A stretch of 28,949 nt of DNA from a virus, in IMG/VR virus record IMGVR_UViG_3300009091_000047, positions 1-28,949 of that record; one strand, given 5' to 3'. Positions within the stretch are counted from its first letter, which is position 1, and the number at the start of each line of letters is the position of its first letter. Both the position numbers and the translations under genes were made by a program. Positions 678 to 28,726 of this stretch are shown here, one piece after another. Below the pieces are notes generated by a model. It ran no database searches, was not told the DNA's origin, and worked only from the letters and a program-made list of their open reading frames with translations.

Positions 678-1130
678 ATGAAAAAATTAAGCGCAAGGCA
701 GCAGGAAGTGATCGACCTCCTAAGTAATGGGTGGGAACTAGGATGGGGGCTTGATATTGGGGGGACGTGCTGGATTCAGAAGGGTGGTGCCGGGCGTGGC
801 GGCGAGAGCCGGAAAGTAAGCATTGCAACCGCCAGAGCTTTACGCGAAGCTGGAAAGGTTGTTTGTGTAGAAAACAAATTTCCAACGGCACGTTACCGCG
901 TGTCGCCCACAGTAGAGTTAGGCGATGCAGAAATTCGGGGAAGTGCTGCAATTTTGGCAATGTATTGCCAGGACAAAGATCGGCAATGCGCTTTGCAGCA
1001 AACCATGATTTTAACCCTAAGAAAAGCGCTATCTGAATACTCGACAGATAGACACCCAAGCGGTATTGCTGCGGAATCTACATGTTGGGCTGATAAAGCG
1101 CTCGTGGATACGATGCCTAACGTAATATAG
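678..1130 (+). CDS. cassette-encoded 150 aa protein, C-terminus formed at the phage junction
   Basis: SD GAGGA precedes ATG at 678. The first 75 residues look like a folded domain: a helix (KLSARQQEVIDLLSNGWEL), a Gly-rich stretch with WIQKGG, then a helix (SIATARALREAGKVV) and a strand with FPTARYRV. This resembles small winged-helix-like proteins of phages and cassettes, but I do not recognise a named family. The C-terminal half is less distinctive. The last codons (CCT AAC GTA ATA TAG) lie in the attC core plus the first bases of the phage terminus, so the phage supplies the stop codon. The pre-insertion C-terminus may have differed. Confidence 0.7.
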   Translation: MKKLSARQQEVIDLLSNGWELGWGLDIGGTCWIQKGGAGRGGESRKVSIATARALREAGKVVCVENKFPTARYRVSPTVELGDAEIRGSAAILAMYCQDKDRQCALQQTMILTLRKALSEYSTDRHPSGIAAESTCWADKALVDTMPNVI

Positions 1131-1296
1131 ACACCCTAAATAACCCTGCAAATGCACCTTTTATTTCCGCAACCAATTGAATTTAAAGTGCAGTTACAAA
1201 CTAAAATTGTCGAGTTTTGCGACAAAATAAGTAATTTAGTAGGTTACTCCCGCCGGTACTCCCCGGCATTGTCCCGGCGAAAGTCGGGGCTTTTTT
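1115..1296 (+). repeat. left terminal inverted repeat (TIR-L) of the phage
   Basis: It aligns gaplessly for 109 bp with the reverse complement of 28617-28725 (about 77 identities by hand), then resumes after a 5 bp offset at the terminator. Shared blocks, measured inward from 1116: the outer 24 bp (starts CCTAACGTAATATAG); CCTGCAAATRCACC at offset 29; TTGAAW at 61; TAAAAW at 86; GAGTTTTGCGACA at 96; and a 29 bp terminator at about 152. TTGAAW-19 bp-TAAAAW is promoter-like but with long spacing. On this side TTGTCG/CGACAA (1207-1225) forms a 6 bp palindrome around AGTTTTG. GCCTAAC at 1115-1121 is also an attC-type core box. Confidence 0.8.
1268..1296 (+). terminator. rho-independent terminator, left TIR, pointing into the phage
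   Basis: Stem CCCGGC / GTCGGG closed by a GAAA tetraloop, followed by GCTTTTTT. It would stop rightward transcription entering from the cassettes or from the TIR promoter-like element. An identical 29 bp copy lies inverted at 28540-28568. Confidence 0.85.
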
Positions 1297-1514
1297 GACC
1301 ATTATGTTGACGCTAACAATATGGTTGCGCGGATGGTGGAATAGGTGTAGAGTGACATTTGTTCGGGATAACGATCCGGGCAACCAACAAATAGGAATCA
1401 AGTGCAAAAAATCAATTTTCTTCTTGTAGCGCGGACGGGATTTTATCCTGTTGCCTATTGCTGGTTAAAATCCTGCGGTTCGTTACCGTGCGCGCTACAA
1501 AAAGGGAATTGATT
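1297..1514 (+). other. leader region with long inverted repeat before the antirepressor gene
   Basis: No ORF is convincing in 1297-1423. From 1424 to 1500 there is an imperfect palindrome. The outer arms are TTGTAGCGCGGACGG (1424-1438) and CCGTGCGCGCTACAA (1486-1500), one mismatch. The inner arms are GGATTTTA (1438-1445) and TAAAATCC (1466-1473). It ends 2 nt before the SD of the next gene. It could be an operator or an RNA hairpin in the 5' leader that hides or exposes the SD. Confidence 0.6.
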
Positions 1515-2180
1515 ATGAACAAACTCGTTGAATTATCAGCATCGCAAACCATGTCAAGCCGCGAAATTGCGGATCTTGTCGAATCTCGCCACGATAAAGT
1601 AAAGCAGTCAATTGATCGGCTTGTGGAGCGTGGCGTAATTTCCAACCCCCCAATGGGGGACGGGGAAAAGTCAGCGAATGGCGTAGTCGAAAAAATATAT
1701 CTTGTTGGAAAGCGCGACAGCTACATCATCGTCGCCCAACTTTCCCCTGAATTCACCGCAAAACTGGTTGACCGATGGCAGGAACTCGAAGCGCAACAAT
1801 TACCAGCCCTGCCAAACTATCAGGAAGCCCTGCGCCAGCTCGCAGACAGTCTGGATAAGCAAGCACAGCTACAGCTTACCATTGAAGCCCAGAAACCCGC
1901 TGTGGCGTTTTTGAGCGGGTATGTTGAGGCTAAGTCAAGCAAGTGTTTAAGCGATGTGGCGAAAATTTTGCAGTACAAGCCGCAATCGTTCATATCTATG
2001 CTGGCCGATGACGGGGTTATATTCAAGCGCGGCGGTGTATGGGTTCCATATCAGCACCAATTAGATGCCGGTCGGTTCACGGTCAAGACAGGAGAATCTG
2101 GCGGGCATTGTTTTGAGCAAACTAGAGTAGAGCCGTCCGGTATCGCTTGGCTTGCTACAAAGTATGGAAGTGGTGTATAG
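1515..2180 (+). CDS. Rha-type / KilAC-domain phage antirepressor
   Basis: This 221 aa protein starts at the ATG at 1515 because AGGGAA lies 8 nt upstream; an in-frame ATG at 1458 would run through the palindrome. Residues about 10-95 match the Rha (pRha) domain pattern: TMSSREIADLVESRHDKVKQSIDR, then KIYLVGKRDSYIIVAQLSPEF and LVDRWQELE. Residues about 140-221 look like a KilAC/ANT C-terminal domain (SDVAKILQYKP..FISMLADDGVIFKRGG.WVPYQHQLDAGRF). Such proteins counter or bypass a prophage repressor in temperate phages. It leads the early region just behind the left terminus. No partner repressor is visible in the window. Confidence 0.85.
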   Translation: MNKLVELSASQTMSSREIADLVESRHDKVKQSIDRLVERGVISNPPMGDGEKSANGVVEKIYLVGKRDSYIIVAQLSPEFTAKLVDRWQELEAQQLPALPNYQEALRQLADSLDKQAQLQLTIEAQKPAVAFLSGYVEAKSSKCLSDVAKILQYKPQSFISMLADDGVIFKRGGVWVPYQHQLDAGRFTVKTGESGGHCFEQTRVEPSGIAWLATKYGSGV

Positions 2181-2331
2181 TGCGTTTCTAGTGGCTGTAA
2201 GAGGCCGAATAGCAAAGGAATGTTGTGAATCTTTTCCCCTGTATCAATTTGAAGAACCTATATCGGCTGCTTGCCAGTCCTTTGCGGGTAACTCTTACCT
2301 TCGTTTTGGTACAGGACAAAGGATTTATTAC

Positions 2332-2667
2332 ATGAAAAAACGCAAAGCAAGAAAAGGATTTGTCTATATCTTGGTTAATCAAGACGAATCTCTTTTTAAG
2401 TACGGAGCATCATCATATCCTGATGAGCGCGTCAGGCATATCAACTACAAATTCAAAAACAACAAGTTCAAAATAATTCACTTAATGCAGTCGAATGATA
2501 TGTTTTCTATGGAGCATAGAATTAGATGCTTCATGCGCAGACTTGGCGTAGTTGGTGAAATTTTTGGACATGAAATTTTTACAAAAGAGCTTGTTTTAAA
2601 AATAGCTAACTGCGCTGCAATTTCCGATGATAAAGCTCTTGGGGAGATATATTATCAAATGGTTTAA
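2332..2667 (+). CDS. GIY-YIG-like (T5orf172-type) protein
   Basis: This 111 aa protein starts at ATG 2332 (AAAGGA 8 nt upstream); the in-frame upstream extension is not protein-like. GFVYILVNQ and KYGASSYPDERV fit the GIY-YIG pattern, with the conserved Arg in DERV and the expected helix with an acidic residue (MEHRIRCFM). This domain is common in phage early regions, often next to KilA/Rha proteins. Nuclease activity is possible but unproven: the fold is reduced, and many members are thought to be DNA-binding. It overlaps the next gene by 41 nt in another frame if that gene starts at its ATG. Confidence 0.6.
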   Translation: MKKRKARKGFVYILVNQDESLFKYGASSYPDERVRHINYKFKNNKFKIIHLMQSNDMFSMEHRIRCFMRRLGVVGEIFGHEIFTKELVLKIANCAAISDDKALGEIYYQMV

Positions 2668-3481
2668 GCATCAATCCTGCGCAAGGAACGACGAAAAGCT
2701 CTCAAGATTGGAAGATAAATCCGGCCTTGAGGGGTACGGATTTTACTTCAAAATGCTTGAAATTGTAGCAGAGGTAATCGACTCCACAGACAAACATGAG
2801 GTTACTTACAGCCTATCGAGATGGGGACGACAGACAAACATCACATCAAAAAAATGGCTGTTCTTGTCGTTATGTTGCTCTGATGTTGGGTTGATGTTTG
2901 TTTGTCGAGCTTCTGACGATATAACTGTTAGAATTCCTAACTTGTTGAAATACAGGGATAACCATACAAAAAACTTGCAAGCAACTTACAAGCAAGAAGT
3001 AGAAGTAGAAGTAGAAGTAGAACAGATACAGAAAAAGAAAGAACACATAAACACAAAGCACATAAGCACAGAAGATAAGAACAAGTACGTCCCGCCTATC
3101 GGCGCAGAATTATTGCAAGACTGGTTGAAGGTTCGAAAAAAGAAACGCGCTGGCGATGTGACGGAAAGGGTTTTTAAGGGATTGCAGCGCGAGGCCAAGG
3201 AAGCTGGAATTACTGACGAACAGGCAGTTACGGTTTGTTGTGAACGAACTTGGCAAACCTTTACAGCCGAATGGTATTTGAAAAAACCTAATCCTGCGTG
3301 GCAAAACGTGCAGGAAGCGAGGCTCGACGTTGCAAGGCAAATTTGGGGGAATAAAAATGGAAATGACAGACAGATTATCGACATTGGCTCTGGAAGCGCA
3401 GATCAGGGTTATGGAGCGCGTATTCCAGAAACTTTCATTGGCTTTCGGGAACCAGATGAATTCGAAGTGGCAGGGGATTGA
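2627..3481 (+). CDS. phage replication initiator-like protein (DUF4373/Lin1244-type N-terminus)
   Basis: The ORF from ATG 2627 codes 284 aa. Residues from IKWFKHQSCARNDEKLSRL through GLEGYGFYFKMLEIVAEVID match the winged-helix N-terminus of phage replication proteins that normally start M-x-WFKH. That homologous start falls at ATT/ATC (2651/2654) behind GGGGAG (2641-2646), not at 2627. A Glu-Val hexanucleotide repeat lies at about residues 125-132, followed by a Lys-rich linker and a helical C-terminal part (LLQDWLKVRKKKRAG...EWYLKK). It probably binds the origin and recruits the helicase loader encoded next. It overlaps that gene by 125 nt. Confidence 0.6.
   Translation: MIKLLGRYIIKWFKHQSCARNDEKLSRLEDKSGLEGYGFYFKMLEIVAEVIDSTDKHEVTYSLSRWGRQTNITSKKWLFLSLCCSDVGLMFVCRASDDITVRIPNLLKYRDNHTKNLQATYKQEVEVEVEVEQIQKKKEHINTKHISTEDKNKYVPPIGAELLQDWLKVRKKKRAGDVTERVFKGLQREAKEAGITDEQAVTVCCERTWQTFTAEWYLKKPNPAWQNVQEARLDVARQIWGNKNGNDRQIIDIGSGSADQGYGARIPETFIGFREPDEFEVAGD
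2999..3022 (+). repeat. GTAGAA hexanucleotide, four copies, inside the replication gene
   Basis: Four perfect tandem copies of GTAGAA encode a Val-Glu run. Slippage here would change linker length without shifting frame. The run may also be an iteron-like feature, because origins often lie inside phage O-type genes, but nothing else supports that. Confidence 0.7.
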
Positions 3482-3734
3482 TATGCAGGCCGTTTATTCC
3501 GACTGGGCGGAAGAGCTGCAAAGCTTGTCGCTGGGGGCCATAAACCACGGCATAGCGCAATCAAAAGCACTTGCGCACCCGCCATCGCAGGGAGAATTCA
3601 AGGCGCTATGCCAGTCATACAAGCCTGCTATGCCGATCATGATCGACTGCAAGCTATCGCCGGAGCAGATCGAGGAAAACCGCAAGCGCATAGCTGGAAT
3701 CGCTGAAATGCTGGCTGGGAGTAAAGCGGCATGA
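3357..3734 (+). CDS. helicase-loader-like replication protein (lambda P / DnaT role)
   Basis: This 125 aa protein starts at ATG 3357, chosen for the strong GGGGGA SD rather than the in-frame ATG at 3330. The middle part (MQAVYSDWAEELQSLSLGAINHGIAQSKALAHPPSQGEFKALC, in pieces) fits the pattern W-x3-L...I-x2-GI...PPS-x2-EF-x2-LC seen in P-type replication proteins that load the replicative helicase. The C-terminus is a charged helix. It lies directly after the initiator-like gene and overlaps its 3' end. Assignment rests on motif and position. Confidence 0.55.
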   Translation: MEMTDRLSTLALEAQIRVMERVFQKLSLAFGNQMNSKWQGIDMQAVYSDWAEELQSLSLGAINHGIAQSKALAHPPSQGEFKALCQSYKPAMPIMIDCKLSPEQIEENRKRIAGIAEMLAGSKAA

Positions 3735-3958
3735 ATTATGATCGATATGAACGCATAGCCATACGCTGTGACAGCGGAATGCTCGAGCGCGAGGCCGTCG
3801 CCCTGACCGATGCCGAGGCTCAATCGAAATCCATGCTCAAGCGCGTAGAGGCCATGGCGAAGCACCAGCGCGAACATGCCGCGCCGGTTCAGCTGACTGT
3901 TCCTAAATCGCCGCCTGTGCTTTCAGCTAAAGACAGGGCGGCTGGGGAGATAGCGTGA
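3731..3958 (+). CDS. hypothetical protein, 75 aa
   Basis: It overlaps the preceding stop as ATGA, so translation is probably coupled. The sequence is hydrophilic and mostly helical (residues 16-50, rich in Glu/Ala/Lys), then has a Pro-rich stretch (VPKSPPV). No family recognised. It is one of a chain of small overlapping early genes, typically host-takeover or accessory replication factors, but its role cannot be inferred. Confidence 0.6.
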   Translation: MNYDRYERIAIRCDSGMLEREAVALTDAEAQSKSMLKRVEAMAKHQREHAAPVQLTVPKSPPVLSAKDRAAGEIA

Positions 3959-4140
3959 GCGAACGAGAATCAAACATTCACTTGGCAAAAGTGTATTTGC
4001 AACAAGCTAGGTTAACCAAGCATAGAAATTGGGCGTTTGTGCTGCTTGCTTGGGCGGCTAATGCGCGAATCAGGGCATCGCAGAATTATATGGAAATACC
4101 AAAATTTATCATGGTCAGGCAAAGGGAACTATTTTTATGA
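3955..4140 (+). CDS. hypothetical protein, 61 aa
   Basis: GTG start at 3955, overlapping the previous TGA by coupling (GTGA). The protein is basic and mostly helical, with an Ala/Trp-rich central segment (WAFVLLAWAANARIRA) that is too short and charged to be a clear membrane span. No recognised domain. The overlap on both sides supports its being translated. Confidence 0.5.
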   Translation: MSERESNIHLAKVYLQQARLTKHRNWAFVLLAWAANARIRASQNYMEIPKFIMVRQRELFL

Positions 4141-4277: not shown

Positions 4278-4300
4278 AAAATAAATACTATTATTTTATG

Positions 4301-4328: not shown

Positions 4329-4373
4329 GTTTTCACGGTGTAGAAAATTCCGGATGAAAAAGGAGCGGTGAAT

Positions 4374-4571: not shown

Positions 4572-4592
4572 ACCAAAAAAGGAGCAGCGAAC

Positions 4593-5679: not shown

Positions 5680-5840
5680 TTCTCTGTCATGTTTGCCGGC
5701 ACCGGCACTGCATCAGCCAAGACGGCCATTACATCCGATTTGTGTGCGACAAGCGCCGGATCGGACTCGGGCTGGAGCATGAATGGCGGACTGGCGAAAA
5801 ATGCCAAACTAAATGCAAGGAGTTTGAAGAATGGAAATAG
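5676..5840 (+). CDS. small Cys/His-rich protein, 54 aa
   Basis: GTG at 5676 overlaps the previous TGA. Cys/His positions (CHVCRHRHC, later VC, EKC, KC) suggest a zinc-binding knuckle. Phages often carry such CxxC/RH proteins next to rusA, function unknown. The in-frame extension upstream to 5607 reads through the preceding gene and looks like a shadow. It overlaps the start of the resolvase gene by 10 nt. Confidence 0.5.
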   Translation: MILCHVCRHRHCISQDGHYIRFVCDKRRIGLGLEHEWRTGEKCQTKCKEFEEWK

Positions 5841-6229
5841 TCCTACCGTGGCCTGACCGAGTATTATCGCCAAACGCGCGCATACATTGGGCGACTCGTG
5901 CAAAAGCCGCTAAATTAGCTCGGAAAGATGGCTATTACCGCGCCATGCTCTCCGGATATACCAAAGCATCATTTGCCGGGTACGATGGCAAATTGCACCT
6001 TTGGATTGATTTTTTCGCTAAAACAAAAAACTACCCAGACGCGGACAATTGCCTGAGTTCGGTAAAAGCGTATTTGGACGGAATCGCGGACGCGCTCGGA
6101 GTGAACGACCGGCGTTTCGTCCATCACCCGTGGGTAAAGGATGAGACGCACAAGGGCGGGAAAGTGTGCATACGAATAACGATGGGGCCGGATGAGGTAA
6201 TTTCAGCGATTGAGAGGATTTTGAAATGA
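5831..6229 (+). CDS. rusA: RusA-family Holliday junction resolvase
   Basis: 132 aa, the usual length for RusA. The N-terminus (LPWPDRVLSPNARIHWA) and the central block YPDADNCLSSVKAYLDGIADALGVNDRRF carry the conserved acidic residues (D-x-DN, then DG-x2-D, then ND) that bind metal in RusA. RusA cleaves four-way DNA junctions, which resolves replication and recombination intermediates before packaging. Embedded in the early gene chain with overlaps on both sides. Confidence 0.9.
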   Translation: MEIVLPWPDRVLSPNARIHWATRAKAAKLARKDGYYRAMLSGYTKASFAGYDGKLHLWIDFFAKTKNYPDADNCLSSVKAYLDGIADALGVNDRRFVHHPWVKDETHKGGKVCIRITMGPDEVISAIERILK

Positions 6230-7395: not shown

Positions 7396-7692
7396 ATGGC
7401 AGGCTCTAAAGTAGCGAAAAACAGCAACGTGGCAGGAAAAGGCAGAATTGGAGGCAGGGCTAAAGGTACGCCAAATAAAGTCACCAGATCAGTTAAGGAT
7501 GCCATTGCTTACGCTGCCGAGGGCTTGGGTGGTGCTGATAGGCTGATCGCTTGGGCAAAGGAGGATGCGGCGAACGAGCGCGCATTCTGGTCGAACATCT
7601 ATCCGAAGCTGTTGCCGCTTACCTTGGCTGGTGATGCTAACAATCCTATCGCTATAACAGAGATCACCCGAACAATAGTTAAGGCCAAGTGA
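7396..7692 (+). CDS. terminase small subunit-like protein
   Basis: 98 aa. The basic N-terminus with RAKGTPNKVTRSVKDAI is typical of small terminase-like proteins that recognise the packaging site. A helical middle (WAKEDAANERAFW) and YPKLLPL follow, matching the phage family often annotated as TerS immediately upstream of PBSX-type large subunits. SD AGAGGGA precedes ATG. The stop overlaps the GTG start of terL, so the two subunits are translationally coupled. Confidence 0.75.
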   Translation: MAGSKVAKNSNVAGKGRIGGRAKGTPNKVTRSVKDAIAYAAEGLGGADRLIAWAKEDAANERAFWSNIYPKLLPLTLAGDANNPIAITEITRTIVKAK

Positions 7693-8921
7693 ACCTCAAT
7701 ATAGACACACCAGAGGTATTTGAGCCGTTGCTGGCTGGCGGTCGGTATCTTGGGGCATGGGGCGGACGAGGTAGCGGTAAATCACACTTCTTTGCCGAGC
7801 TAACAATCGAAGATCATATCCGTGAGAGGTGCGATACGGTTTGCCTGCGCGAGATACAGAAGAGCTTGAAATTCAGCAGCAAGAAGCTGTTAGAGCTGAA
7901 GATTCAGGCTCTGAATGCTGGTGGGTACTTTGACGTGCAGGAAAGCGTCATAAAGGCCAAAAACGGCGGAATCATCATCTTTCAGGGTATGCAAGACCAC
8001 ACAAGCGATAGCATCAAGTCGCTTGAGGGTTTTAAATACGCATGGTTTGAAGAGGCACAGTCGGCGTCGCAGCGAAGCCTAGACTTGCTCAGGCCTACCA
8101 TCAGAGCGCCCGGTTCTCAGTTACGTTTTAGCTGGAATCCTAACCTAGCCACTGACCCTATAGACGTTTTACTACGCGGTGACAACCCTCCGCCTGATTC
8201 GGTGATAGTTAAGGCTAACTACAAGGATAATCCGTGGCTTCCTGCCGAATTGCTGGCAGAAATGGAATACGACAAGCGGCGCGATCCTGACAAATACGCG
8301 CACATCTGGCTTGGCGAGTATCAACGCAATAGCGAATCAAGGGTGTTCCGAAATTGGAAAGTAGAAGAATTTGAGCGCCCTGCTGGAACGGTTTACCGAT
8401 TAGGTGCAGATTGGGGCTTCTCGGTTGATCCTAGCATTTTGGTTCGGTGTTCAATCGAAGGCAATAGGCTGTATGTTGACTATGAGGCGTATTCCGTAGG
8501 CTGCGAGATAGTCAACCTGCCAGAGCTATTCATGGGAGTGCCGGAGGCCGAGAAATGGCCTATTACCGCAGATAGTGCCAGACCTGAAACCATCAGCCAC
8601 ATGTGCAAAAACGGCTTCCCGAAGATTAGGAGCGCAATTAAGGGAAGCGGCTCGCTTGAGGATGGTATCGAGTGGCTAAAGTCGTTCGACCTGGTGATTC
8701 ACCCGCGCTGCACGCACACAATCGACGAGCTGACCATGTATAGCTACAAGACTGACCCGCTGACCGGGCTGGTTCTTCCGTTGCTTGAGGATAAAAACAA
8801 CCATGTTATAGATGCGCTGCGCTATGCCTGCGAGGGTGCCAGGAGAGCAAAGCCTATAAAACCAGTTAAAGTAAAGCCGAAGCCATACGCTCACCGGCAC
8901 AATCAAGGATGGATGGCATGA
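7689..8921 (+). CDS. terminase large subunit (PBSX/Terminase_3 family)
   Basis: 410 aa, full length. Walker A GGRGSGKS at residues 25-32; Walker B AWFEE at 118-122; the RNase H-like nuclease acidic residues fit D241 (GADWGFSVD), D295 (ITADSARPE) and D375 (NHVIDALRYA). The ATPase drives DNA into the procapsid and the C-terminal nuclease cuts the concatemer, here probably by a headful mechanism as in other P22-type phages. GTG start overlaps the TerS stop. The end overlaps the portal start (ATGA). Confidence 0.95.
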   Translation: MNLNIDTPEVFEPLLAGGRYLGAWGGRGSGKSHFFAELTIEDHIRERCDTVCLREIQKSLKFSSKKLLELKIQALNAGGYFDVQESVIKAKNGGIIIFQGMQDHTSDSIKSLEGFKYAWFEEAQSASQRSLDLLRPTIRAPGSQLRFSWNPNLATDPIDVLLRGDNPPPDSVIVKANYKDNPWLPAELLAEMEYDKRRDPDKYAHIWLGEYQRNSESRVFRNWKVEEFERPAGTVYRLGADWGFSVDPSILVRCSIEGNRLYVDYEAYSVGCEIVNLPELFMGVPEAEKWPITADSARPETISHMCKNGFPKIRSAIKGSGSLEDGIEWLKSFDLVIHPRCTHTIDELTMYSYKTDPLTGLVLPLLEDKNNHVIDALRYACEGARRAKPIKPVKVKPKPYAHRHNQGWMA

Positions 8922-11167
8922 GTGAGAAAAAGACGAGCGAGAAAAAGACGATTGTCGAGGAGGCGTTAAAGCGGTTCAATACTGCTGAAGAAGCGTATAA
9001 GGATTCTCTGCGCATGGCTGTCACTGACACAGCCTTTGCGTGGGGAGATTCGGACAACATGAAACAGTGGCCAGAAAACGTAGCCGCAACGCGCAAGGAT
9101 GACCACAAGATATGCCTGACGATCAACCAGACAGCACAACATTGCAACCAAGTAATCAACGCTATCAGGCAGGAACGTCCAACTGGTAAAGTGATCCCGG
9201 CTAACGATTCAGCCCATAAGAAGGGTGCGGAGATATTCGGCGGACTCATCCGTTCTATACAAGCTAACTCAAACGCTGATGATGCGCACGATAACGCCGC
9301 AGAACATGCAATTTATGGTGGTATAGGCTATTGGAGGATAATCACAGAATACGAAGCGCCGGATTCATTCAGCCAGATTATTAAGATCAAGCCATGCCCA
9401 AACCCGCAACTGGTGCGTGTTGACCCGTTGCCAAGCCTGTTAGAGCCAGAAAAGCGCGAGTGGGGATTCATCTTCGAGGACGTGCTGAAAGAGACGTTCA
9501 AGCGCGAATATCCTGATATTGACCCGACGAACTGGCAGATTGACTCTGACGGGTGGGTAAGTGAGGACTCATTCCGAAGGGCTGAGTATTTCTATTCCGA
9601 GTACGTTGATGACGTTGCGATTCTGTTTTCAGACGGTTCAACCAAGCTAAAGAGCAAGATCGAAGGCGTTACTGTTGACGCTATGGGAATGCCGTTAAGC
9701 GTGGTTAAAGAGCGCAAGACACAGCGAAGGCAATGGAAATGGTGCGTGCTGGTCGGTGGGCACGATAAGCCGCTGGAAGAAAAACTATGGGCGGGAGAGT
9801 ATCTTCCTATCGTTGAGACTGTCGGTAAGGCAATCAATATCGACGGCAAGATGAACATCAAGGGCGAAGTGCGTGACCTAAAGGATCAGCAGCGCATCAT
9901 AAATTACTCGTTCTCAGAGACGGTTCAAACTCTGGCATTGCAGAACAAAGTTCCGTACATGGCCGCAGCTGAGGCCATCGAAGACTTTGAGGACGAATGG
10001 GCATCGGTTAATCTTGAGAATAGATCGTACTTGCCGTTCAACGCATACGACGAGAAAGGCAATGCATTACCTACTCCGGCGCGTCAGCCTCCGCCGCAAA
10101 TGGCAACAGCCCAGGTGCAATTGTTGCAGATAGCCTCTGAACAAATGAGGGCAGCATCAGGACAACAAAATGCAAACTTTGGGATTAGGTCTGAGGCTGC
10201 GTCTGGTGTAGGGATTCAAAGGCTGAAGGTACAAGGTGAGGTCGCAACCTTCCACTTCCCTGACAACCATGCACGCGGTTTGCGCTATGAGATAAAAATT
10301 CTCGTTGACCTTATACCTAAAATCATGGACACCAAGCAAGTTGTGACCATTCTAGGAGTAGACGGTAAACAGGAAAAGGTGATTCTCGACCCTGAAAATC
10401 AGGAATCTTACACACCTATCACGTCTGAGGACATTGAGCACATTTTCAACCCGAATATCGGGAAGTACACAGTAGCAATCGACACCGGCCCAAGCTATAC
10501 GACACAGCGCCAAGAGGGTGCGGCAAGCCTGAACGAGTTGGCCGGACGTAACCCGGCATTGATGCAAGTTGCTGGTGATTTGATAATGCGCGCTCAGGAC
10601 TTCCCCATGGCTGACCAGTTAGCTGACAGATTGGCTAAGACATTGCCGCCTAACCTGCAAGAAAGTAAAGGCGGGGCTGAACAGCAACTTGCACAACTGA
10701 GCCAGCAAGCACAGCAAATGCAACAGCAGATGCAGCAGATGGAGCAGGCATTGCAAGAGGCGCAAGGCAAGCTACAGCAAGCAGAATCAGGTCAAGCTAA
10801 GTCGCAGATGGAGATTGAAGCCAAGATGCAGCTTGCGCAGATTGAAGCGCAGATAGAAGATCAGCGCCACCAGCGCGAGATTGAGTTCAAGAAGCAACAG
10901 GCCGAGCTTGATGCGCATATGGAGCAACAGAAGATCGAAACTATGGCGCTGGTGGCGCAGAAGCAATCAACAATTGATGCGCACATGGCGATGGAAAAGG
11001 CGAGGCAGGATTGCGCTATCAAGATGGAAGTGGCTAAACTGGATATTGACAGCAAGGAAGAGATTGCAGAACTAAATGCTTACGTCGAACTGCAAAAGGC
11101 TGGAATGCAGAACGAGGCATTGACCGCAGACGTGAACAAGGATTTGAACGAACCAGAATCAGAGTAA
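8918..11167 (+). CDS. P22-type portal protein
   Basis: 749 aa from ATG 8918, which overlaps the terL stop and has AGGA 9 nt upstream (an in-frame ATG at 8909 has no SD spacing). The length and features such as ITEYEAPDSFSQIIKI, IINYSFSETVQTLALQNKVPYM and the SGQQNANFG motif fit the P22 portal family. The last 150 residues are a Gln/Glu-rich coiled coil, as in the P22 portal barrel. The dodecameric portal is the DNA gate and the docking point for gp4-like head completion proteins, one of which is encoded at 16789. Confidence 0.92.
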   Translation: MSEKKTSEKKTIVEEALKRFNTAEEAYKDSLRMAVTDTAFAWGDSDNMKQWPENVAATRKDDHKICLTINQTAQHCNQVINAIRQERPTGKVIPANDSAHKKGAEIFGGLIRSIQANSNADDAHDNAAEHAIYGGIGYWRIITEYEAPDSFSQIIKIKPCPNPQLVRVDPLPSLLEPEKREWGFIFEDVLKETFKREYPDIDPTNWQIDSDGWVSEDSFRRAEYFYSEYVDDVAILFSDGSTKLKSKIEGVTVDAMGMPLSVVKERKTQRRQWKWCVLVGGHDKPLEEKLWAGEYLPIVETVGKAINIDGKMNIKGEVRDLKDQQRIINYSFSETVQTLALQNKVPYMAAAEAIEDFEDEWASVNLENRSYLPFNAYDEKGNALPTPARQPPPQMATAQVQLLQIASEQMRAASGQQNANFGIRSEAASGVGIQRLKVQGEVATFHFPDNHARGLRYEIKILVDLIPKIMDTKQVVTILGVDGKQEKVILDPENQESYTPITSEDIEHIFNPNIGKYTVAIDTGPSYTTQRQEGAASLNELAGRNPALMQVAGDLIMRAQDFPMADQLADRLAKTLPPNLQESKGGAEQQLAQLSQQAQQMQQQMQQMEQALQEAQGKLQQAESGQAKSQMEIEAKMQLAQIEAQIEDQRHQREIEFKKQQAELDAHMEQQKIETMALVAQKQSTIDAHMAMEKARQDCAIKMEVAKLDIDSKEEIAELNAYVELQKAGMQNEALTADVNKDLNEPESE

Positions 11168-12078: not shown

Positions 12079-13317
12079 ATGAGTAATTCGTTAAAAGTAA
12101 TTGATTTGGTGCTGAAAGAAAGTCAGCGCATCGCCCACGAAAAGTTGAGCTTCATTGCCACAACCGACCTGCAATACGACAAGTCTTTCACCTATCAAGC
12201 CGGTAAAGGCCCTAACGGTCAAACCCTGCGTGTTCGTGAACCTAACCAGTTCACCCGCACCCAAGGTTCTCGCCTTGCTGATGTCCAGGACGTAACGGAA
12301 ACCACGCAAGACATCACCGTTGCCACTCAAGATCACGTTGCTATGCGCTTTAACTCTGCCGAGTTGATGCAATCGGTAAACAGCACGTCGGCCTTTGATG
12401 ACCTGTCCAAGAGCTACATCGAGCCAGCTATTGCCAGCTTCGTGTCCGGGATTGAGGCGGATTACATCGCTTACTGCACAAAACGCACCTATAACGTGGT
12501 TGGCACTGCTGGAACGCCTCCTACCGATCTGGTGGCAATCGGTGCGGCTAGAGCAAGGCTGAATCAAGGTCTTGCGCCAAAAGACGGCAAGCGTTACATC
12601 CAAGCGGATTCTGTGACTATGGCAGGTATGGTCAACGGCCTGAAAGGTCTGTTCCAAGACTCTAGCCAGATCAAGGAGCAATACCGCGAGGGCATGATGG
12701 GGCGCACAGGTGGTTTTGATTGGTACGAAAACGACCGCATGTATACGCAAACCAACACGTCTGACGTTGCTGTGACTACCGCTGCCGCTGCTGCTGTTAC
12801 CAATGGTGGGACTAACATCACCTTGGCATCTGTGGCTACTGCAACGACCGCAGGCATGACGTTCACTGTTGCCGGTGTGTATGCTTGTCACCCGGAAACA
12901 AAGCAGTCATTGGGTTACTTGCAACAGTACGTCGTCATCACTGGTGGCACAACCACTCAGGAAGTGCGTCCTGCAACTTGGGTGTCTGGTGCGAAACAGA
13001 ACGTGTGCGATGCTACCGGCGCAGCAATTGCCGTGACAGCGTACAACGGGACTGCTGTTGCTGTGACCTTCCAAGGTGCTGCATCTACCAGCTATCTGCA
13101 AAACTTGGCATACCATAAGGAGGCTTTCCAGTTCATTACTGCTGACCTTCCTTTGATGGACGACGCTCATAAGTGCGTCCGTTCCGTCAAGGATGGCTTG
13201 TCGATGCGTGTATGGCAGGCATCTGATATCAGAAATGATGAGCTCATCCTCCGCGTCGATATGCTTTATGGCATGGCAGCTTTGCGGCCTGCCTGGGCGT
13301 GCCGCATCACCAACTAA
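12079..13317 (+). CDS. major capsid (coat) protein, P22 gp5 family
   Basis: 412 aa with a strong SD (AAAGGAG). The N-terminal part (KVIDLVLKESQRIAHEKLSFI, then a YDKSF region and TVATQDHVAMRFNSAELM) and the C-terminus (SMRVWQASDIRNDELILRVDMLYGMAALRPAWACRI) match the P22-like coat fold. A central Thr/Ala/Gly-rich beta segment (about residues 230-335, with TAAAAAVTNGGTNITLA) fits the inserted I-domain of this family. HK97-fold coat proteins of this type build the T=7 head. Confidence 0.93.
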   Translation: MSNSLKVIDLVLKESQRIAHEKLSFIATTDLQYDKSFTYQAGKGPNGQTLRVREPNQFTRTQGSRLADVQDVTETTQDITVATQDHVAMRFNSAELMQSVNSTSAFDDLSKSYIEPAIASFVSGIEADYIAYCTKRTYNVVGTAGTPPTDLVAIGAARARLNQGLAPKDGKRYIQADSVTMAGMVNGLKGLFQDSSQIKEQYREGMMGRTGGFDWYENDRMYTQTNTSDVAVTTAAAAAVTNGGTNITLASVATATTAGMTFTVAGVYACHPETKQSLGYLQQYVVITGGTTTQEVRPATWVSGAKQNVCDATGAAIAVTAYNGTAVAVTFQGAASTSYLQNLAYHKEAFQFITADLPLMDDAHKCVRSVKDGLSMRVWQASDIRNDELILRVDMLYGMAALRPAWACRITN

Positions 13318-14981: not shown

Positions 14982-15486
14982 AGGCAAAGTTCTGCATGTT
15001 GGTAGTGGTGGGACTAGCCTTCCAGAATGGTGCGGCAAGTGCGATGAGGTCAGACTTGATATTGATCCGGGTTGCAATCCTGACATTGTTGGCGATATTC
15101 GCAACCTTGGCGAAATAGGGAAATTCGACGTTATCCTGTCTAGTCACGTCATTGAGCACCTTTATGAGCATGAACTGGCGCAAGTATTCAGCGAGTTCCA
15201 GCGGGTACTAAACGATGACGGCGTGATGATTATGTTTGTGCCTGACCTCGAAGGAATAAAGGCTACGGATGAAATTGTTTATATTTCGTACTTCGGCACA
15301 CCAGTTACAGGGCTGGATATGATTTACGGCATGACGGATGCTATAAAGGATATGCCGTTCATGGCGCACCATACCGGATTCACTAAGGACAGGCTTGAAA
15401 AGGTGCTGTCGGCGGCTGGCTTTGTTGATGTTTCAGTAACAAGGCATCCGTATAACTTGATGGGTGTTGGGCGAAAAGCTAAATGA
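14971..15486 (+). CDS. class I SAM-dependent methyltransferase
   Basis: 171 aa from ATG 14971 (AAAGG upstream), overlapping the glycosyltransferase by 11 nt; in-frame codons further upstream are a shadow of that gene. Motif I VLHVGSGG (7-14), acidic loop LDID (29-32), GDIRNL, then FDVILSSHVIEHLYEHEL and a VLNDDGVMIMFVPDL strand give a small Methyltransf_11-like domain. It may methylate a sugar or a protein. Context with a sugar epimerase suggests carbohydrate methylation. Confidence 0.8.
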   Translation: MALKGKVLHVGSGGTSLPEWCGKCDEVRLDIDPGCNPDIVGDIRNLGEIGKFDVILSSHVIEHLYEHELAQVFSEFQRVLNDDGVMIMFVPDLEGIKATDEIVYISYFGTPVTGLDMIYGMTDAIKDMPFMAHHTGFTKDRLEKVLSAAGFVDVSVTRHPYNLMGVGRKAK

Positions 15487-16028
15487 TCGCTGTTCCAACA
15501 TCCATCCCAGATTTACTGATTATCGAGCCGAAAGTATTTAGCGATGATCGTGGTTTTTTCTTCGAAAGTTTCAACCGGCGTAATTTTTCAGAGCTAATCG
15601 GGCGCGATGTTGATTTTGTTCAGGACAATCATTCACGATCTGTTAAAAACGTGCTGCGCGGACTGCACTACCAGATTCAACATCCGCAAGCCAAGCTGGT
15701 TAGAGTGGTTCAAGGTGTGGTGATTGATGTTGCGGTTGATATACGAAGAAGCTCACCGACTTTTGGGCAACATGTTGCATTGGAATTGTCTGCCGAAAAC
15801 AAGCGCATGTTATGGATACCGGAAGGCTTTGCGCATGGATTCTTAGTGCTATCTGATACAGCAGAATTCTTGTATAAGACCACAGATTACTGGTATCCAG
15901 AACATGAACGCTGCATACGCTGGGATGATCCGGATTTGGCTGTTGATTGGAAGTTGAATTCATTTCCAACTGTTTCAGAAAAAGACACAAAAGGAATATT
16001 TTTTTCACAGATACAAGGGGAATCATAA
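15483..16028 (+). CDS. rfbC: dTDP-4-dehydrorhamnose 3,5-epimerase-like enzyme (RmlC/RfbC)
   Basis: 181 aa, full length for the cupin family. DDRGFFFESF (21-30), QDNHSRS (47-53), LRGLHYQ with catalytic His62, WIPEGFAHGF (111-120), TDYWYPEHERCIRWDDPDLAVDW, and SEKD with the partner Asp168 are all present. The family epimerises C3 and C5 of dTDP-4-keto-6-deoxyglucose on the way to L-rhamnose. The rmlA/B/D steps are absent, so the host pool must supply substrate, or the product is another 6-deoxysugar. Start overlaps the methyltransferase stop (ATGA). Confidence 0.93.
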   Translation: MIAVPTSIPDLLIIEPKVFSDDRGFFFESFNRRNFSELIGRDVDFVQDNHSRSVKNVLRGLHYQIQHPQAKLVRVVQGVVIDVAVDIRRSSPTFGQHVALELSAENKRMLWIPEGFAHGFLVLSDTAEFLYKTTDYWYPEHERCIRWDDPDLAVDWKLNSFPTVSEKDTKGIFFSQIQGES

Positions 16029-24817: not shown

Positions 24818-24827
24818 GGGGATAAGA

Positions 24828-25898
24828 ATGGCAATTTTGACTATGCTTCGGCACGAATTCCGCAGAAATGACGGCACATTGAATGCTGGGGGAAAGGTAT
24901 ACACCTACGAAGCTGGAACTGGAAACACCCCGGTAACTACATACACCAGCAGCGCGGCGACTACGCCTAATACAAATCCGATAATCCTTGATGCAAAAGG
25001 AGAATGTGACCTGTGGATAACAGGGCAAATAAAAGTCAACGTACTGCAATCCGATGATGTTCAAGTCACCGGATGGCCAGTGGATAATATCGGATCAGGC
25101 GTATCGAATAACGATGCTACTTCGCGCTGGTCAGGAACTGCCGGTGGTACTGCCAATGCGCTAACGATTACGCCGTCACCGTCAATCACAGCTTATGCAA
25201 TCGGTCAGTCTTTTATATTCAAGGCTGGCGCGTCTGCTAACACATCGACGACAACGATTGCGGTATCAGGTCTATCCGCTATTGCGTCTCAATCTAATGG
25301 TGCGGCAATGGCTGGCGGTGAAATACTAGCAAATAATTTCTACATCGGCGTTTTAGATACGCTAACGACTTGCCAAATATCAAAACTTGGCGAGGCTACG
25401 CTTGCAGAATTAGGAGCGGCAGCACTCGCCGGTTCAGCAGCGCAAGCATTTCAGGGCAGCACGTTAAAGGCCGCTACTACGATAGGAGTCGGTGCGGCGA
25501 CACCGGCTGCATCGGGAGCAGGTATCACATTCCCATCCGTACAATCCGCATCATCAGACGCGAACACGCTTGACGATTATACAAAATTCACATGGACACC
25601 TTCGCCAACCAATTTAACGGTAGTCGGTACGCCGACCTACACAGGGACGGGTACTAAAATTGGTAATCTTGTCTACCTGTATTTAAAAGTATTCTCAACT
25701 ACGTCAACGCAAAGCGCCGCCAACTCCACTTACTTTGCGGGTTCTCCGTATTCACCCGCGAATGTGTCCGTGAATTCGGCGGTAAATGGATCCGTCCTAT
25801 CCTTAGGTAACGGTTTTACGTTTACCAACGGTAATGTTTACTCGCCAACTTGGGCGGCGACTTCCAACGTATATGTAAATTCAGTCTTTACGGTTTAA
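24828..25898 (+). CDS. tail fibre / tailspike protein, short
   Basis: 356 aa, SD AAGGGGA. The N-terminal 90 residues (FRRNDGTLNAGGKVYTYEAGTGNTPVTTYTSSAATTPNTNPIILDAKGECDLWI..G, then WPVDNIG) form the head-binding domain pattern shared by podovirus tailspikes. The middle is Thr/Ala-rich repeats (LAELGAAALAGSAAQAFQG), and the C-terminal about 110 residues are beta-rich (TYTGTGTKIGNLVYLYLKVFS), probably the receptor-binding tip. No pectin-lyase or glycosidase signature is visible, so it more likely binds than cuts its receptor. Confidence 0.8.
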   Translation: MAILTMLRHEFRRNDGTLNAGGKVYTYEAGTGNTPVTTYTSSAATTPNTNPIILDAKGECDLWITGQIKVNVLQSDDVQVTGWPVDNIGSGVSNNDATSRWSGTAGGTANALTITPSPSITAYAIGQSFIFKAGASANTSTTTIAVSGLSAIASQSNGAAMAGGEILANNFYIGVLDTLTTCQISKLGEATLAELGAAALAGSAAQAFQGSTLKAATTIGVGAATPAASGAGITFPSVQSASSDANTLDDYTKFTWTPSPTNLTVVGTPTYTGTGTKIGNLVYLYLKVFSTTSTQSAANSTYFAGSPYSPANVSVNSAVNGSVLSLGNGFTFTNGNVYSPTWAATSNVYVNSVFTV

Positions 25899-25910
25899 GG
25901 GGAAATAAAA

Positions 25911-26195
25911 ATGAGCCACATTAAAGCAGTATCACTAAGCGACACAGGTGAGTTCCTAGTTGTTATTGGCAAAAGCGCAGATGATGAACTTATAACGACC
26001 GGAGTTCATCTGATGCGATTACTTCCTGGGTGTGATGTATCAGCAACGATTGCTGCAAACAGCGCAGGTTTGGTCAGGCTTGGGTCAACCGAGATACTGC
26101 CAGCGCACGTTGCGTCTCTGGAATCTGAGGTTGATGCGAATTGGACACCTGCGGTTATCGCTGCCTACAAAGCAGCAAATACGCCACCTGTATGA
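25911..26195 (+). CDS. hypothetical protein after the fibre gene, 94 aa
   Basis: SD AGGGGA before ATG. The sequence starts with a beta hairpin (IKAVSLSDTGEFLVVIGK) and ends with a helix (VIAAYKAAN). Genes in this slot often encode fibre assembly factors or small tip proteins. No family recognised. It overlaps the next ORF by ATGA. Confidence 0.5.
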   Translation: MSHIKAVSLSDTGEFLVVIGKSADDELITTGVHLMRLLPGCDVSATIAANSAGLVRLGSTEILPAHVASLESEVDANWTPAVIAAYKAANTPPV

Positions 26196-26281
26196 AGCAC
26201 CTACTAGCCACCATGATTCTCGGAATCGTTAAGTTCCTACTGTGCGTGTCTGAGATTAAATCAAGGTTCCCAAAGGTATGA
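26192..26281 (+). CDS. tiny hydrophobic ORF, 29 aa
   Basis: ATG overlaps the preceding stop, and its own stop overlaps the next ATG (ATGA on both sides). The first 20 residues are hydrophobic (MKHLLATMILGIVKFLLCV). It could be a small membrane peptide of the lysis region, or serve only translational coupling. Confidence 0.4.
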   Translation: MKHLLATMILGIVKFLLCVSEIKSRFPKV

Positions 26282-26442
26282 AACTGATCGCCGCAATCTT
26301 AATCCTGTGGCTACCGTTCAGCCTAGCTGCGATCATATCTGTTCCAGTGCTGCTATGGGCGTTGGCTACCGATACGGAGTCAGTATGGAGGCCAGTAGGC
26401 CGTGCGATGGATAAACTGCTTGCTGCGCTGATGGGGTATTAA
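26278..26442 (+). CDS. small membrane protein of the lysis region, 54 aa
   Basis: Residues 1-30 are a long hydrophobic stretch (MKLIAAILILWLPFSLAAII...), one long or two short spans. An amphipathic tail (VGRAMDKLLAALMGY) follows. Similar small proteins, with 'AMD.L.AAL.G' endings, precede holin/endolysin genes in many phages. Possible holin accessory. The 95 bp after it (26443-26537) hold no convincing gene. Confidence 0.5.
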   Translation: MKLIAAILILWLPFSLAAIISVPVLLWALATDTESVWRPVGRAMDKLLAALMGY

Positions 26443-26537
26443 GGTCGCGGCGTATCAGGCGGCAGTAGCGGCTTATTTAGCTGCAATGCAAGCCTAGCAG
26501 GCTGCGCAGGTTATACAATCGGAAAGGGAAAAATAAA

Positions 26538-26828
26538 ATGATGCAAGATCAGAGAAAAGAACGCTGGCACGTCGGAAAAGAAATACCCGTCGCGGTGATA
26601 TTAGCTTTTTTTTTGCAGACAGTTGGAGCTGTGTGGTGGGCGGCAACATTGACGGCCAAGATTGATGAATTATCGTATCAAGTAGCGGCATTAACAGTTG
26701 ACAAATATACTCAAAATGACGCAAAGCGAGATCAGGCGTTGATATTTCAGAGAATATCTACAATTGAGAGTAGAATTGACAGGGCTGAATCTAAAAATTA
26801 TTCTGGAGGTGGAAAATGGCAAAGATAA
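26538..26828 (+). CDS. holin-like membrane protein with coiled coil, 96 aa
   Basis: ATG 26538 (a second ATG follows at 26541), with AAAGGGA upstream. One transmembrane helix spans about residues 15-38 (IPVAVILAFFLQTVGAVWWAATL). A coiled coil follows at about 39-85 (KIDELSYQVAALTVD...RISTIESRIDRAE). This architecture is frequent in phage lysis cassettes and is annotated as holin or membrane-anchored lysis regulator. The exact role is uncertain because a second holin-like gene lies downstream. Confidence 0.6.
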   Translation: MMQDQRKERWHVGKEIPVAVILAFFLQTVGAVWWAATLTAKIDELSYQVAALTVDKYTQNDAKRDQALIFQRISTIESRIDRAESKNYSGGGKWQR

Positions 26829-26959
26829 GAAATGCAAAAGTAGAGCAACAGCGCAAGGTGAATAACGGCGTTGCAATAAACAAGCGTGTTCTTGATTCTA
26901 GGAAGATTGCAAGCAAACAGGCTCCTTTGAGTAGAAACATAAAAGGGCGTATTGCCTAA
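26816..26959 (+). CDS. small very basic protein, 47 aa
   Basis: GGAGG gives a strong SD before ATG 26816, and the gene overlaps the previous one by 13 nt. About a third of residues are Lys/Arg, with Gln/Asn, and no hydrophobic core (MAKIRNAKVEQQRKVNNG...). It looks like a disordered nucleic-acid-binding peptide. Its stop is 1 nt before the endolysin ATG, so it may also couple that gene's translation. Confidence 0.5.
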   Translation: MAKIRNAKVEQQRKVNNGVAINKRVLDSRKIASKQAPLSRNIKGRIA

Positions 26960-26960
26960 A

Positions 26961-27371
26961 ATGATTACCCTTGAGCAATATTTCAAAGGGAAGCCACACA
27001 CCGCAGAGCAGTCTGTGAATGCGGTTGACTTGTTGCACAAGGTGGCGTTGCTGCTTGATTACGCTGCCATGCAAGGTGCTTACCACTGCGATGTTGACTG
27101 CGATACGGAGTGCTACATATCGGGCAGCAAAGGTGGCTCTGGTGACGGTGGGTTTAGATTACCCGATGCGGCCAATGGGCGAAAGCTGTCATCGCATAAA
27201 GAGGCCAAGGGTATTGATATTTACGACCCGCACAACTCACTCGATGACTTCTTGACGGACGCAATACTCGCTACCTACGGCCTGTATCGTGAGCATCCAG
27301 ACTCAACACCCAGATGGTGTCATTTAACGACCCGCGAACCGGGGAGCAAACGGAGAACTTTTATACCGTGA
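26961..27371 (+). CDS. endolysin, M15-type peptidase
   Basis: 136 aa from ATG 26961. Zn ligands fit His79 and Asp86 (SSHKEAKGIDIYDP) and His121 (WCHL). The frame LEQYF.G at the start, a Gly-rich loop before R-x-PDAANGRK, and the ending LYREHPDSTPRWCHL..REPGSKRRTFIP match phage M15-family (VanY/D,D-carboxypeptidase-like) endolysins that cut cell-wall cross-links. No signal peptide, so release depends on a holin. It ends in a GTGA overlap with the next holin-like gene. Confidence 0.85.
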   Translation: MITLEQYFKGKPHTAEQSVNAVDLLHKVALLLDYAAMQGAYHCDVDCDTECYISGSKGGSGDGGFRLPDAANGRKLSSHKEAKGIDIYDPHNSLDDFLTDAILATYGLYREHPDSTPRWCHLTTREPGSKRRTFIP

Positions 27372-27574
27372 TTAAAATATGGTTCGACAGAATCGTTCGA
27401 AGCAAGACAATGTGGTTCAACGCGGTAGTAGCGGGGCTCGCGGCACTTGAACCCGTATTCGGGCTGCTGCAATCGTTTTTGCCAGGTAACGTATACGCTT
27501 ACCTAACAGTTGTATTGACGGTAGGTAATGCTATGCTTAGGGTTGTGACCACCACAGCGCTGGAAGACAAATGA
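27368..27574 (+). CDS. holin, two-span, 68 aa
   Basis: GTG 27368 overlaps the endolysin stop and has GGAG upstream; an in-frame ATG at 27314 would lie deep in the endolysin gene. Sequence: a charged N-terminus (IKIWFDRIVRSKTMW), hydrophobic segments FNAVVAGLAALEPVFGLL and YAYLTVVLTVGNAMLRVV. Phage proteins of the type 'RSKT.WFN.....L...LP......L....N..LR..T' are annotated as holins. Position between endolysin and spanins agrees. Confidence 0.7.
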   Translation: MIKIWFDRIVRSKTMWFNAVVAGLAALEPVFGLLQSFLPGNVYAYLTVVLTVGNAMLRVVTTTALEDK

Positions 27575-28029
27575 AAGCTGCCGCGCTGTTATTTCTGAGA
27601 GGTATCTTTACTTGGATACTTGAAAACTGGCAGTTCTGCGCGCTTGTTGCTATCGGGGCTGCGCTGTTCTACTTAGGCTCACAACACACGCAGCACAAAT
27701 GGGATAAAGCGGTCGCAGCACAGACCGCCACCCAACTTGCAAAAAATGTAGCGGACAATGAAAAACTGAAGCAGTTACAGGAGAAATCAAATGTTGAATC
27801 TCAAGACAATCTGCGCCTGCGCGCTAATAACCACGCTCTTTGGTTGCGTCTGCCCCAAGGCTCATGTGGAGGATCAAGTCAAACCAGCAGCGATACAACT
27901 ACCGGAGCAGGGGAGCTTCCAACTCAAAGCGAACGAGATTTGGCAGAAGCTAAACGACAACTGGATGACGAAGCCCTCCGAGCCGACGAGGTAGTCAGGG
28001 CTTGCCGGGTGTTGAACGGCATGAATTAA
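27571..28029 (+). CDS. i-spanin (Rz-like)
   Basis: 152 aa, ATG overlapping the previous stop. One N-terminal transmembrane helix (about residues 18-36) is followed by a long periplasmic coiled coil (KWDKAVAAQTATQLAKNVADNEKLKQLQEK...) and a charged C-terminal helix (ERDLAEAKRQLDDEALRADEVVRACR), the Rz topology. It spans the periplasm with the outer-membrane partner encoded inside it at 27791 to fuse the membranes in the last lysis step. Confidence 0.85.
   Translation: MKAAALLFLRGIFTWILENWQFCALVAIGAALFYLGSQHTQHKWDKAVAAQTATQLAKNVADNEKLKQLQEKSNVESQDNLRLRANNHALWLRLPQGSCGGSSQTSSDTTTGAGELPTQSERDLAEAKRQLDDEALRADEVVRACRVLNGMN
27791..27994 (+). CDS. o-spanin (Rz1-like lipoprotein), nested inside Rz
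   Basis: 67 aa in the +1 frame, wholly inside the Rz gene. A lipoprotein signal peptide (MLNLKTICACALITTLFGC) carries the lipobox L16-F-G-C19, so the mature protein starts at Cys19 and is lipid-anchored in the outer membrane. The mature part has Pro/Gln-rich stretches, usual for Rz1. The embedded arrangement is known from lambda-type spanins. Confidence 0.85.
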   Translation: MLNLKTICACALITTLFGCVCPKAHVEDQVKPAAIQLPEQGSFQLKANEIWQKLNDNWMTKPSEPTR

Positions 28030-28265
28030 GCAGCCATAATCGTGCGCGACTTGGCGAAATCACGGTAGCTTTGGCGATTGCACTGCACGCATGACCCGTT
28101 GCAGGCGTACCTTATGCCGTCGTGGCCGTGGGGGCACGGCTTACCTTGATAAGTAGACTGGCCTGCGAGCTGCGCTTTTTCGGTCAATCGCTTACAGTTT
28201 CGCACCTTTCGGGTCTGCGATGACTCCTTGTCTTTCCAGACGTACTTGCGCTTCACTTTTTCCAT
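28026..28265 (-). CDS. Cys-rich zinc-knuckle protein (HNH-associated type), 79 aa
   Basis: Leftward gene with SD GAGGGAA. The C-terminal part has GKPCPHGHDGIRYACNGSCVQC: C-x2-GH-x-G-x-RY-x4-G-x-C-x2-C, a zinc-binding pattern found in many phage proteins and at the N-side of some HNH endonucleases. The HNH catalytic part itself is missing. N-terminus is basic. It ends at the Rz stop (4 nt overlap, convergent). Possibly a DNA-binding accessory protein. Confidence 0.65.
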   Translation of the reverse strand: MEKVKRKYVWKDKESSQTRKVRNCKRLTEKAQLAGQSTYQGKPCPHGHDGIRYACNGSCVQCNRQSYRDFAKSRTIMAA

Positions 28266-28528
28266 TTCGCTGTTCCCTCTTTCCAGTCGGTCATCGTAGT
28301 GCCGGGCGCGCCCATAACGTCAAACCGCTTAATATCCGCAATCAATGCCCGGTGCGCAGCCTCGGCCTGATTGCGCGCATCTTTCTCCCAGAAATACGCC
28401 TCACCGAAGTATAGGAGCACGATTAGAACTGCCAATGCGCTCCAAATATAGACACGCGCCCTGACGTGTCTCCAACGCCCTAAGGGCCAGTTAAACCGCT
28501 TCCAGCGCGGCAATGTGTACTCTCTCAT
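28253..28528 (-). CDS. membrane protein next to the right terminus, 91 aa
   Basis: ATG 28528 with AGGA 7 nt upstream; a longer frame from TTG 28567 would begin inside the terminator and is unlikely. N-terminal 25 residues are basic (MREYTLPRWKRFNWPLGRW), then one transmembrane helix (RVYIWSALAVLIVLLYFGEAYF), then a charged helical tail with KRFDVMGAPG. Positive-inside rule puts the N-terminus in the cytoplasm. Overlaps the following leftward gene by 13 nt. May be a superinfection-exclusion or accessory lysis protein; no evidence distinguishes these. Confidence 0.6.
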   Translation of the reverse strand: MREYTLPRWKRFNWPLGRWRHVRARVYIWSALAVLIVLLYFGEAYFWEKDARNQAEAAHRALIADIKRFDVMGAPGTTMTDWKEGTAKWKK

Positions 28529-28539
28529 GTATATCCTAT

Positions 28540-28568
28540 AAAAAAGCCCCGACTTTCGCCGGGACAAT
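28540..28568 (-). terminator. rho-independent terminator, right TIR, pointing into the phage
   Basis: Exact inverted copy of 1268-1296: stem CCCGGC/GTCGGG, GAAA loop, then six T on the minus strand. It stops leftward transcription from outside or from the TIR, and sits only about 11 nt upstream of the leftward gene that starts at 28528. Confidence 0.85.
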
Positions 28569-28726
28569 TCCGCTTACCTGACGGACGGACGGAGTAGTTG
28601 ACTAAAACGCTTTAAATGTCGCAAAACTCTGAGTTTTTAGCTTTAAGTCTCGTATATATTTCAATGTGTTGCAAGTAATTATGGTGTATTTGCAGGTTTT
28701 ATTAGGGTGTCTATATTACGTTAGGA
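28540..28726 (-). repeat. right terminal inverted repeat (TIR-R) of the phage
   Basis: Inverted partner of 1115-1296. The outermost 24 bp (28702-28725) are identical to 1116-1139. Conserved inner blocks lie at the same offsets from the end: CCTGCAAATACACC (29), TTGAAA (61), TAAAAA (86), GAGTTTTGCGACA (96), then the terminator. Intervening bases have diverged, which suggests selection on the blocks rather than recent duplication. The outer edge carries the core-like box GTTAGGA (28720-28726). Confidence 0.8.

Follow-up and report, generated by a model that had tools for sequence, protein, structure and literature searches.

Inverted attI sites and reversed gene cassettes flanking a P22-like phage core suggest early operons filled by a host integron integrase

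How do both ends of a phage core come to lie directly against integron gene cassettes? The question is raised by IMG/VR virus record IMGVR_UViG_3300009091_000047, a stretch of 28,949 bases referred to here as the window. Profile matches to its open reading frames (ORFs) identify positions 1121..28720 (~27.6 kb) as the core of a P22-like phage, with portal, scaffold, coat, tail and ejection genes of P22 type, the portal, coat, tail and ejection genes standing in the order expected for a P22-like podovirus, together with an antirepressor, O- and P-like replication genes, RusA, a holin and a spanin (Table 1). No Phage_integrase (PF00589) match to a tyrosine recombinase was obtained in any part of the window at a threshold as loose as E<=10, and no intI gene was found there; the window is part of a phage genome, and the unsequenced part could hold an integrase. 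A first-pass annotation of the sequence had described the ends as inverted copies of an integron core box fused to cassettes, and had proposed that the phage either integrates by integron recombination or carries two attI-like acceptors that have gained cassettes. We consider it probable that the phage, integrase-less as sequenced, has early operons (PL and PR) that are cassette arrays filled through attI by the host integron integrase, IntI, acting in trans.

The 24-bp end repeat on which that annotation rested, CCTAACGTAATATAGACACCCTAA, is indeed found exactly twice in the window, identical and inverted, at 1116-1139 (+) and 28702-28725 (-). This sequence forms the outside of a longer inverted repeat with arms of 66 nt (79% complementary) and 33 nt (97% complementary), which aligns as a single continuous local alignment of ~190 nt and closes on its inner side in a near-identical intrinsic terminator. 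Both core ends are inverted ~190-bp copies of one module in which an attI site is paired with an intrinsic terminator, a structure that "copies of a core box" understated. The attI core of the phage ends, TTAGGGTGTCTATATTACG↓TT (the arrow marks the cut point), agrees with the attI beside intI in Burkholderiales chromosomes. The core box CCTAAC/GTTAGG previously placed in the ends is divided between two owners: phage sequence begins at AAC/GTT, and the CCT/AGG half is assigned to the cassette, as this phage end reads GCAC-AAC in another contig, L083 (3300006224_000326). The two "ends" of the core are probably not physical genome ends.

Long inverted repeats at both ends, and junctions that all fall at an attC half-box, are also what a transposable phage or a transposon targeting attC sites would leave. 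We regard such an origin as very improbable, given that there is no transposase match among the window genes and no direct target duplication (1110-1120 compared with 28721-28731), that the repeat resembles host attI and sits at the place expected of attI, that L083 differs from the window by one whole cassette, and that the same ends have so far not been seen at non-integron sites. No viral contig matched a 22-mer of the phage end exactly; a 17-mer gave matches.

To compare the phage sites with those of bacteria, GGTGTCTATATTACGTTRRRY was searched with <=2 mismatches in 300 genomes of the order that contains a Methylotenera genome (Burkholderiales), yielding 16 matches compared with 3 for a control pattern. 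Many of the matches adjoin a divergent intI (for example L116, L117, L133, L135, L143, L154 and L160), where the context reads GGTGC-TTTT--GGCGCTTTTTAGGGTGTCTACTTTACG↓TTRRRY with a core common to the phage ends, so that the attI site of a complete integron is present at both of them. Over the 100 nt upstream, the likeness to host attI is suggestive rather than strong, its score being reached by 5 of 500 shuffles for the left site (attI_L) and 2 of 500 for the right (attI_R). Burkholderiales as host of the phage is a working guess, because it was the sole order searched.

A covariance model trained on 12 attCs, 5 of them from phage-linked arrays, recovered 56 attCs in host loci, nine in L083 and, at 36-81 bits, four in the window, three to the left of the core (-) and one to its right (+) with none inside, in keeping with the earlier description of attC-bearing cassettes outside both ends. 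These flanking attCs are of Burkholderiales type; L083 matches 77 of 399 Burkholderiales genomes, nearly always at attCs only and with identity up to 95%. The extrahelical-base half (CCCATCATTC...) is placed relative to the phage attI as in host arrays, so the arrangement of attCs first described is canonical with respect to the phage ends and inverted with respect to their own cassette ORFs. Similarly, the claim that the cassette ORFs stop in the core box holds for the right ORF and fails for ORF 678-1130, which reads through the box to a TAG within phage sequence.

Integron integrases are known to insert and remove cassettes at attI, and the two contig forms differ by one such step. L083 shares the phage end and the cassettes with the window, cassette 3 excepted, and deleting window positions 595-1120 (526 bp) yields its sequence with 0 mismatches over 712 nt. 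The difference is bounded exactly by integrase cut points, G↓TT in attI_L and G↓TT in attC 2. A further contig, L003 (metagenome 3300006224), is 99.98% identical to the window across 16.4 kb and starts at the exact point where the cassette-3 variants split, overlapping L083 by exactly 120 nt. Because an assembler would normally have merged L083 and L003 in the absence of a second junction, forms with and without cassette 3 probably coexist in that metagenome. Together with the match to intI-adjacent attI, this exact cassette difference strongly supports the proposal of two attI-like acceptors that have gained cassettes, and the cut points and the identity of the sites suggest host IntI as the enzyme that would act on them. 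The data are metagenome contigs in which only AACGTA is common across the junctions, as would suit a chimeric joining of cassettes and phage at a short shared sequence. Such an artefact is scarcely credible, since the junction is seen again in separate contigs (the window and L083, plus L084 and L118, which stem from other metagenomes), each time at the integrase cut point, and the L083/L003 overlap is exact.

In a bacterial integron, transcription of the cassettes starts at a promoter near attI and runs outward, and of 63 ORFs adjacent to attCs in the host arrays, 59 accordingly point away from attI. The phage-linked arrays are reversed, with ORFs pointing toward attI and the phage in 9 of 10 cases as against 4 of 63 in host arrays. 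The contrast is plain, although its Fisher p of 7e-8 is too small, as neighbouring cassettes are not independent. The single exception, ORF 341-583 (-), which overlaps a cassette ORF, probably represents a shadow ORF, and the single cassettes at L084 and L118 likewise carry reversed ORFs. A layout with a Pc-type promoter near attI is not seen here: the ORFs run toward attI and the terminator faces them.

We initially read the arrays as host chromosome surrounding a prophage that host IntI had integrated into a chromosomal cassette array, with the attI pair as attachment site and host cassettes as flanks, which would make it the IntI analogue of XerCD-exploiting elements. The host type of attC and attI fits this, as does the lack of an integrase in the window even though some terminase relatives carry one. 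Such an event should leave one attI-cassette and one attC-phage junction, whereas both observed junctions are outward attI-cassette junctions, which a single attI x attC event would not create without a second capture or an inversion. The ORFs are reversed compared with host arrays, and no phage-array ORF was found as a cassette in the 399 Burkholderiales genomes, where matches were nearly all to attC. Furthermore, the far end of the left array, in L083, holds a Cro-like ORF (478-690; phrog_409, E 4e-4; Pfam P22_Cro, E 0.08) and a divergent ORF, with a promoter-like site facing left and a change of GC skew near base 400. The right flank of the window, in which rightward late genes give way to leftward ORFs with attC on the + strand, has the same geometry in MW202573, a circular phage record of the same phage group with a terminase large subunit 64% identical to that of the window; its corresponding operon has same-type attCs and reversed ORFs, and Qi et al. 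2023 (PMC9892861) reported the attC cluster of this phage. The prophage interpretation gave way in view of the ORF reversal, the Cro-like gene and MW202573; we now hold it to be unlikely, although it is the main rival. The proposal that the phage integrates by integron recombination is not supported either, as the flanks resemble early operons.

The Cro-like gene with its divergent promoter region, the geometry of MW202573, the two outward junctions and the longer relatives (many terminase relatives lie on 33-40 kb contigs, exceeding the 27.6-kb core) are the reasons for which we read the arrays as probably the phage's own, located within its genome. Several observations weigh on the other side. 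The identity of the Cro-like protein is weak at the E values given; its fold prediction (pLDDT 52) is uninformative, and a sequence comparison gave no PDB match. With <=6 mismatches allowed, MW202573 showed no recognisable attI; the other terminase relatives gave no convincing attC array, and the stretches of them examined gave no attI core. No contig connects the right array to L083, joins both arrays or closes a circle, and phage homologues are absent for most cassette ORFs, among them window 678-1127 and L083:779-1270.

In the arrangement that we propose for the phage, each array closes on its promoter-distal side in an acceptor module of attI and intrinsic terminator, the two modules lying inverted at the ends of the core. 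Host IntI, an enzyme induced by the SOS response, would insert and remove cassettes at the phage attI in trans, through the standard attI x attC reaction. Transcription from PR would cross the left array and transcription from PL the right one, so that cassette genes would be read from early promoters at the far end toward attI, opposite to the reading direction in a bacterial integron, and transcription would end at the terminator behind attI. The reversed cassette orientation would make sense here, the promoter being located at the array's far end.

Is this phage alone in carrying such sites? Contig L084, which has a different terminase family (phrog_38), ends in TTTTAGGGTGTCTATATTACG↓TTGGGC followed by an antisense cassette, and L118, whose portal belongs to phrog_156 without detectable similarity to the window portal, ends in TTTTAGGGTGTCTACTTTACG↓TTAGGC, again followed by an antisense cassette. 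No intI (TIGR02249) was found in the examined stretches of L083, L084 and L118. The likeness of the L084 and L118 sites to host attI is confined to the core, and could reflect convergent mimicry or, alternatively, a minimal site that was exchanged. We lean slightly toward a recurrent strategy in which several lineages (the window phage, L084 and L118) mimic host attI and let host IntI shuffle phage-specific accessory genes of the early operons; if so, phages would own an integron without an integrase. The attI core was absent from the INPHARED phages and PLSDB plasmids searched, and matches to short patterns in L085-L088, L094-L100 and L119-L126 look like chance. An attI-like core in a 56.7-kb phage contig (L151:2084-2103), by a small ORF flanked by GTTATACC/GGTATAAC, was not retained as attI: its R box misfits RYYYAAC, one or two chance matches are expected by estimate, and it may be one of these. 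A second attI-like sequence (AGGTGTCTATTTCTACGTTATGC) lies just inside the terminal attI core of L118 (14100-14200), and a PAPS-reductase-like gene (L084:4939-5640) is among the genes closest to the attI end of L084.

Mimicry of a host recombination site has a precedent in XerCD-exploiting elements (IMEX, for example CTX phage), in which a mimicked site recruits a host tyrosine recombinase to phage DNA. The window phage would share that principle and differ in its enzyme, IntI, and in its likely purpose, gene capture rather than integration. With the sedentary chromosomal integrons of Burkholderiales it has in common the attI core and the attC family, whereas the window lacks intI, its cassettes are read toward attI, and two attI sites serve one replicon module. 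Phage-borne clusters of attC sites without integrase (CALINs) are already known (Qi et al. 2023, PMC9892861), two of the carriers being Tetrasphaera phage TJE1 and MW202573; these phage genomes lack intI and hold attC cassettes, some of them with DNA methyltransferase genes. With three attCs to the left in the window, nine in L083 and no intI, the arrays qualify as such a cluster provided that they are located in the phage genome, as seems likely. They depart from known CALINs in the attI acceptors, the inverted pairing with terminators and the cassette turnover, and their ORFs are antisense to attC, whereas TJE1 cassettes have the usual orientation. A cassette of L083 (2169-2897) encodes an N6/N4 DNA methyltransferase whose best phage match (60%) is the methyltransferase of the TJE1 attC cluster, which hints at a cassette pool common to distant phages. 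The Vibrio anguillarum prophages Va_90-11-286_p16 and PF430-3_p42 (Qi et al. 2023) are also temperate phages linked physically to an integron, but they carry intI and host array fragments, and p16 is flanked by attC repeats and not by attI of its own. A search of the open-access literature (no preprints) returned no paper dealing with attI acceptors in phages or with orphan attI, and none describing an integrase-less phage with paired attI acceptors.

Until now, integron parts carried by phages have been regarded as captured fragments. If the proposal is correct, a phage maintains dedicated attI acceptors at which the host integrase swaps whole genes at a defined place, with cassettes turned round to suit phage early promoters. 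Part of the mosaicism of early regions and of the turnover of accessory genes such as methyltransferases would then be tied to site-specific recombination, and a cassette route would exist between bacteria and virions.

Table 1. Coordinates of the features identified in the window
Feature	Position	Strand	Remarks
Partial attC, left window edge	1..39	-	covariance model 36 bits; complete copy at L083:3571-3633
Cassette 1 ORF, 79 aa, membrane-type protein	70..309	+	antisense to attI/attC
attC 1	304..394	-	covariance model 54 bits
Cassette 2 ORF, 54 aa	423..587	+	translation
attC 2	589..652	-	covariance model 81 bits; in training set
Cassette 3, IntI unit, 526 bp	595..1120	-	in window, not in L083
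Cassette 3 ORF, 150 aa	678..1130	+	no family match; stop codon inside attI_L
attI_L, left core end, read outward	1119..1205	-	cut G↓TT at 1121↓1120; core of same form as Burkholderiales attI by intI
Phage core, P22-like	1121..28720	+	no tyrosine recombinase match
Intrinsic terminator behind attI_L	1264..1297	+	hairpin then TTTTTT; 97% identical to right copy; faces left-array transcription
Antirepressor Ant	1458..2180	+	phrog_63, E 6e-61
O-like replication initiator	2627..3481	+	phrog_678, E 9e-12
RusA-like Holliday junction resolvase	5831..6229	+	phrog_34, E 2.5e-16
Terminase large subunit	7689..8921	+	phrog_3717, E 1.5e-55
P22-like portal protein	8909..11167	+	phrog_156, E 5e-107
Major head protein	12079..13317	+	phrog_283, E 3e-53
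Rz-like spanin, final rightward late gene	27571..28029	+	phrog_6197, E 4e-4
Two leftward ORFs between late genes and attI_R	28026..28567	-	local GC skew becomes negative
Intrinsic terminator behind attI_R	28540..28572	-	hairpin then TTTTTT; faces right-array transcription
attI_R, right core end, read outward	28640..28722	+	core same as attI_L
Cassette 4 ORF, ~49 aa	28721..28870	-	antisense to attI_R
attC 4, ends at window edge at GTTA	28889..28949	+	covariance model 68 bits

Within the core, a dTDP-4-dehydrorhamnose 3,5-epimerase-like gene lies among the structural genes (15483-16028; phrog_8784, E 4e-67), and an imperfect 29-nt inverted repeat with a 47-nt spacer is found immediately 5' of the antirepressor gene (1410-1514). 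Among the host genomes, orphan attI sites with cassettes and no intI nearby were observed at L164:13331, L169:1841, L165:6837, L167:11959, L168:1795 and L170:4014, in several genomes of a single Burkholderiales family and downstream of housekeeping genes (aspS in two genomes); such hosts apparently maintain several acceptor sites served by an IntI in trans. One host contig (G200:C20) has outward-facing attI cores at 344975 (-) and 397958 (+), 53 kb apart, with ordinary chromosomal genes on the inside of each core.

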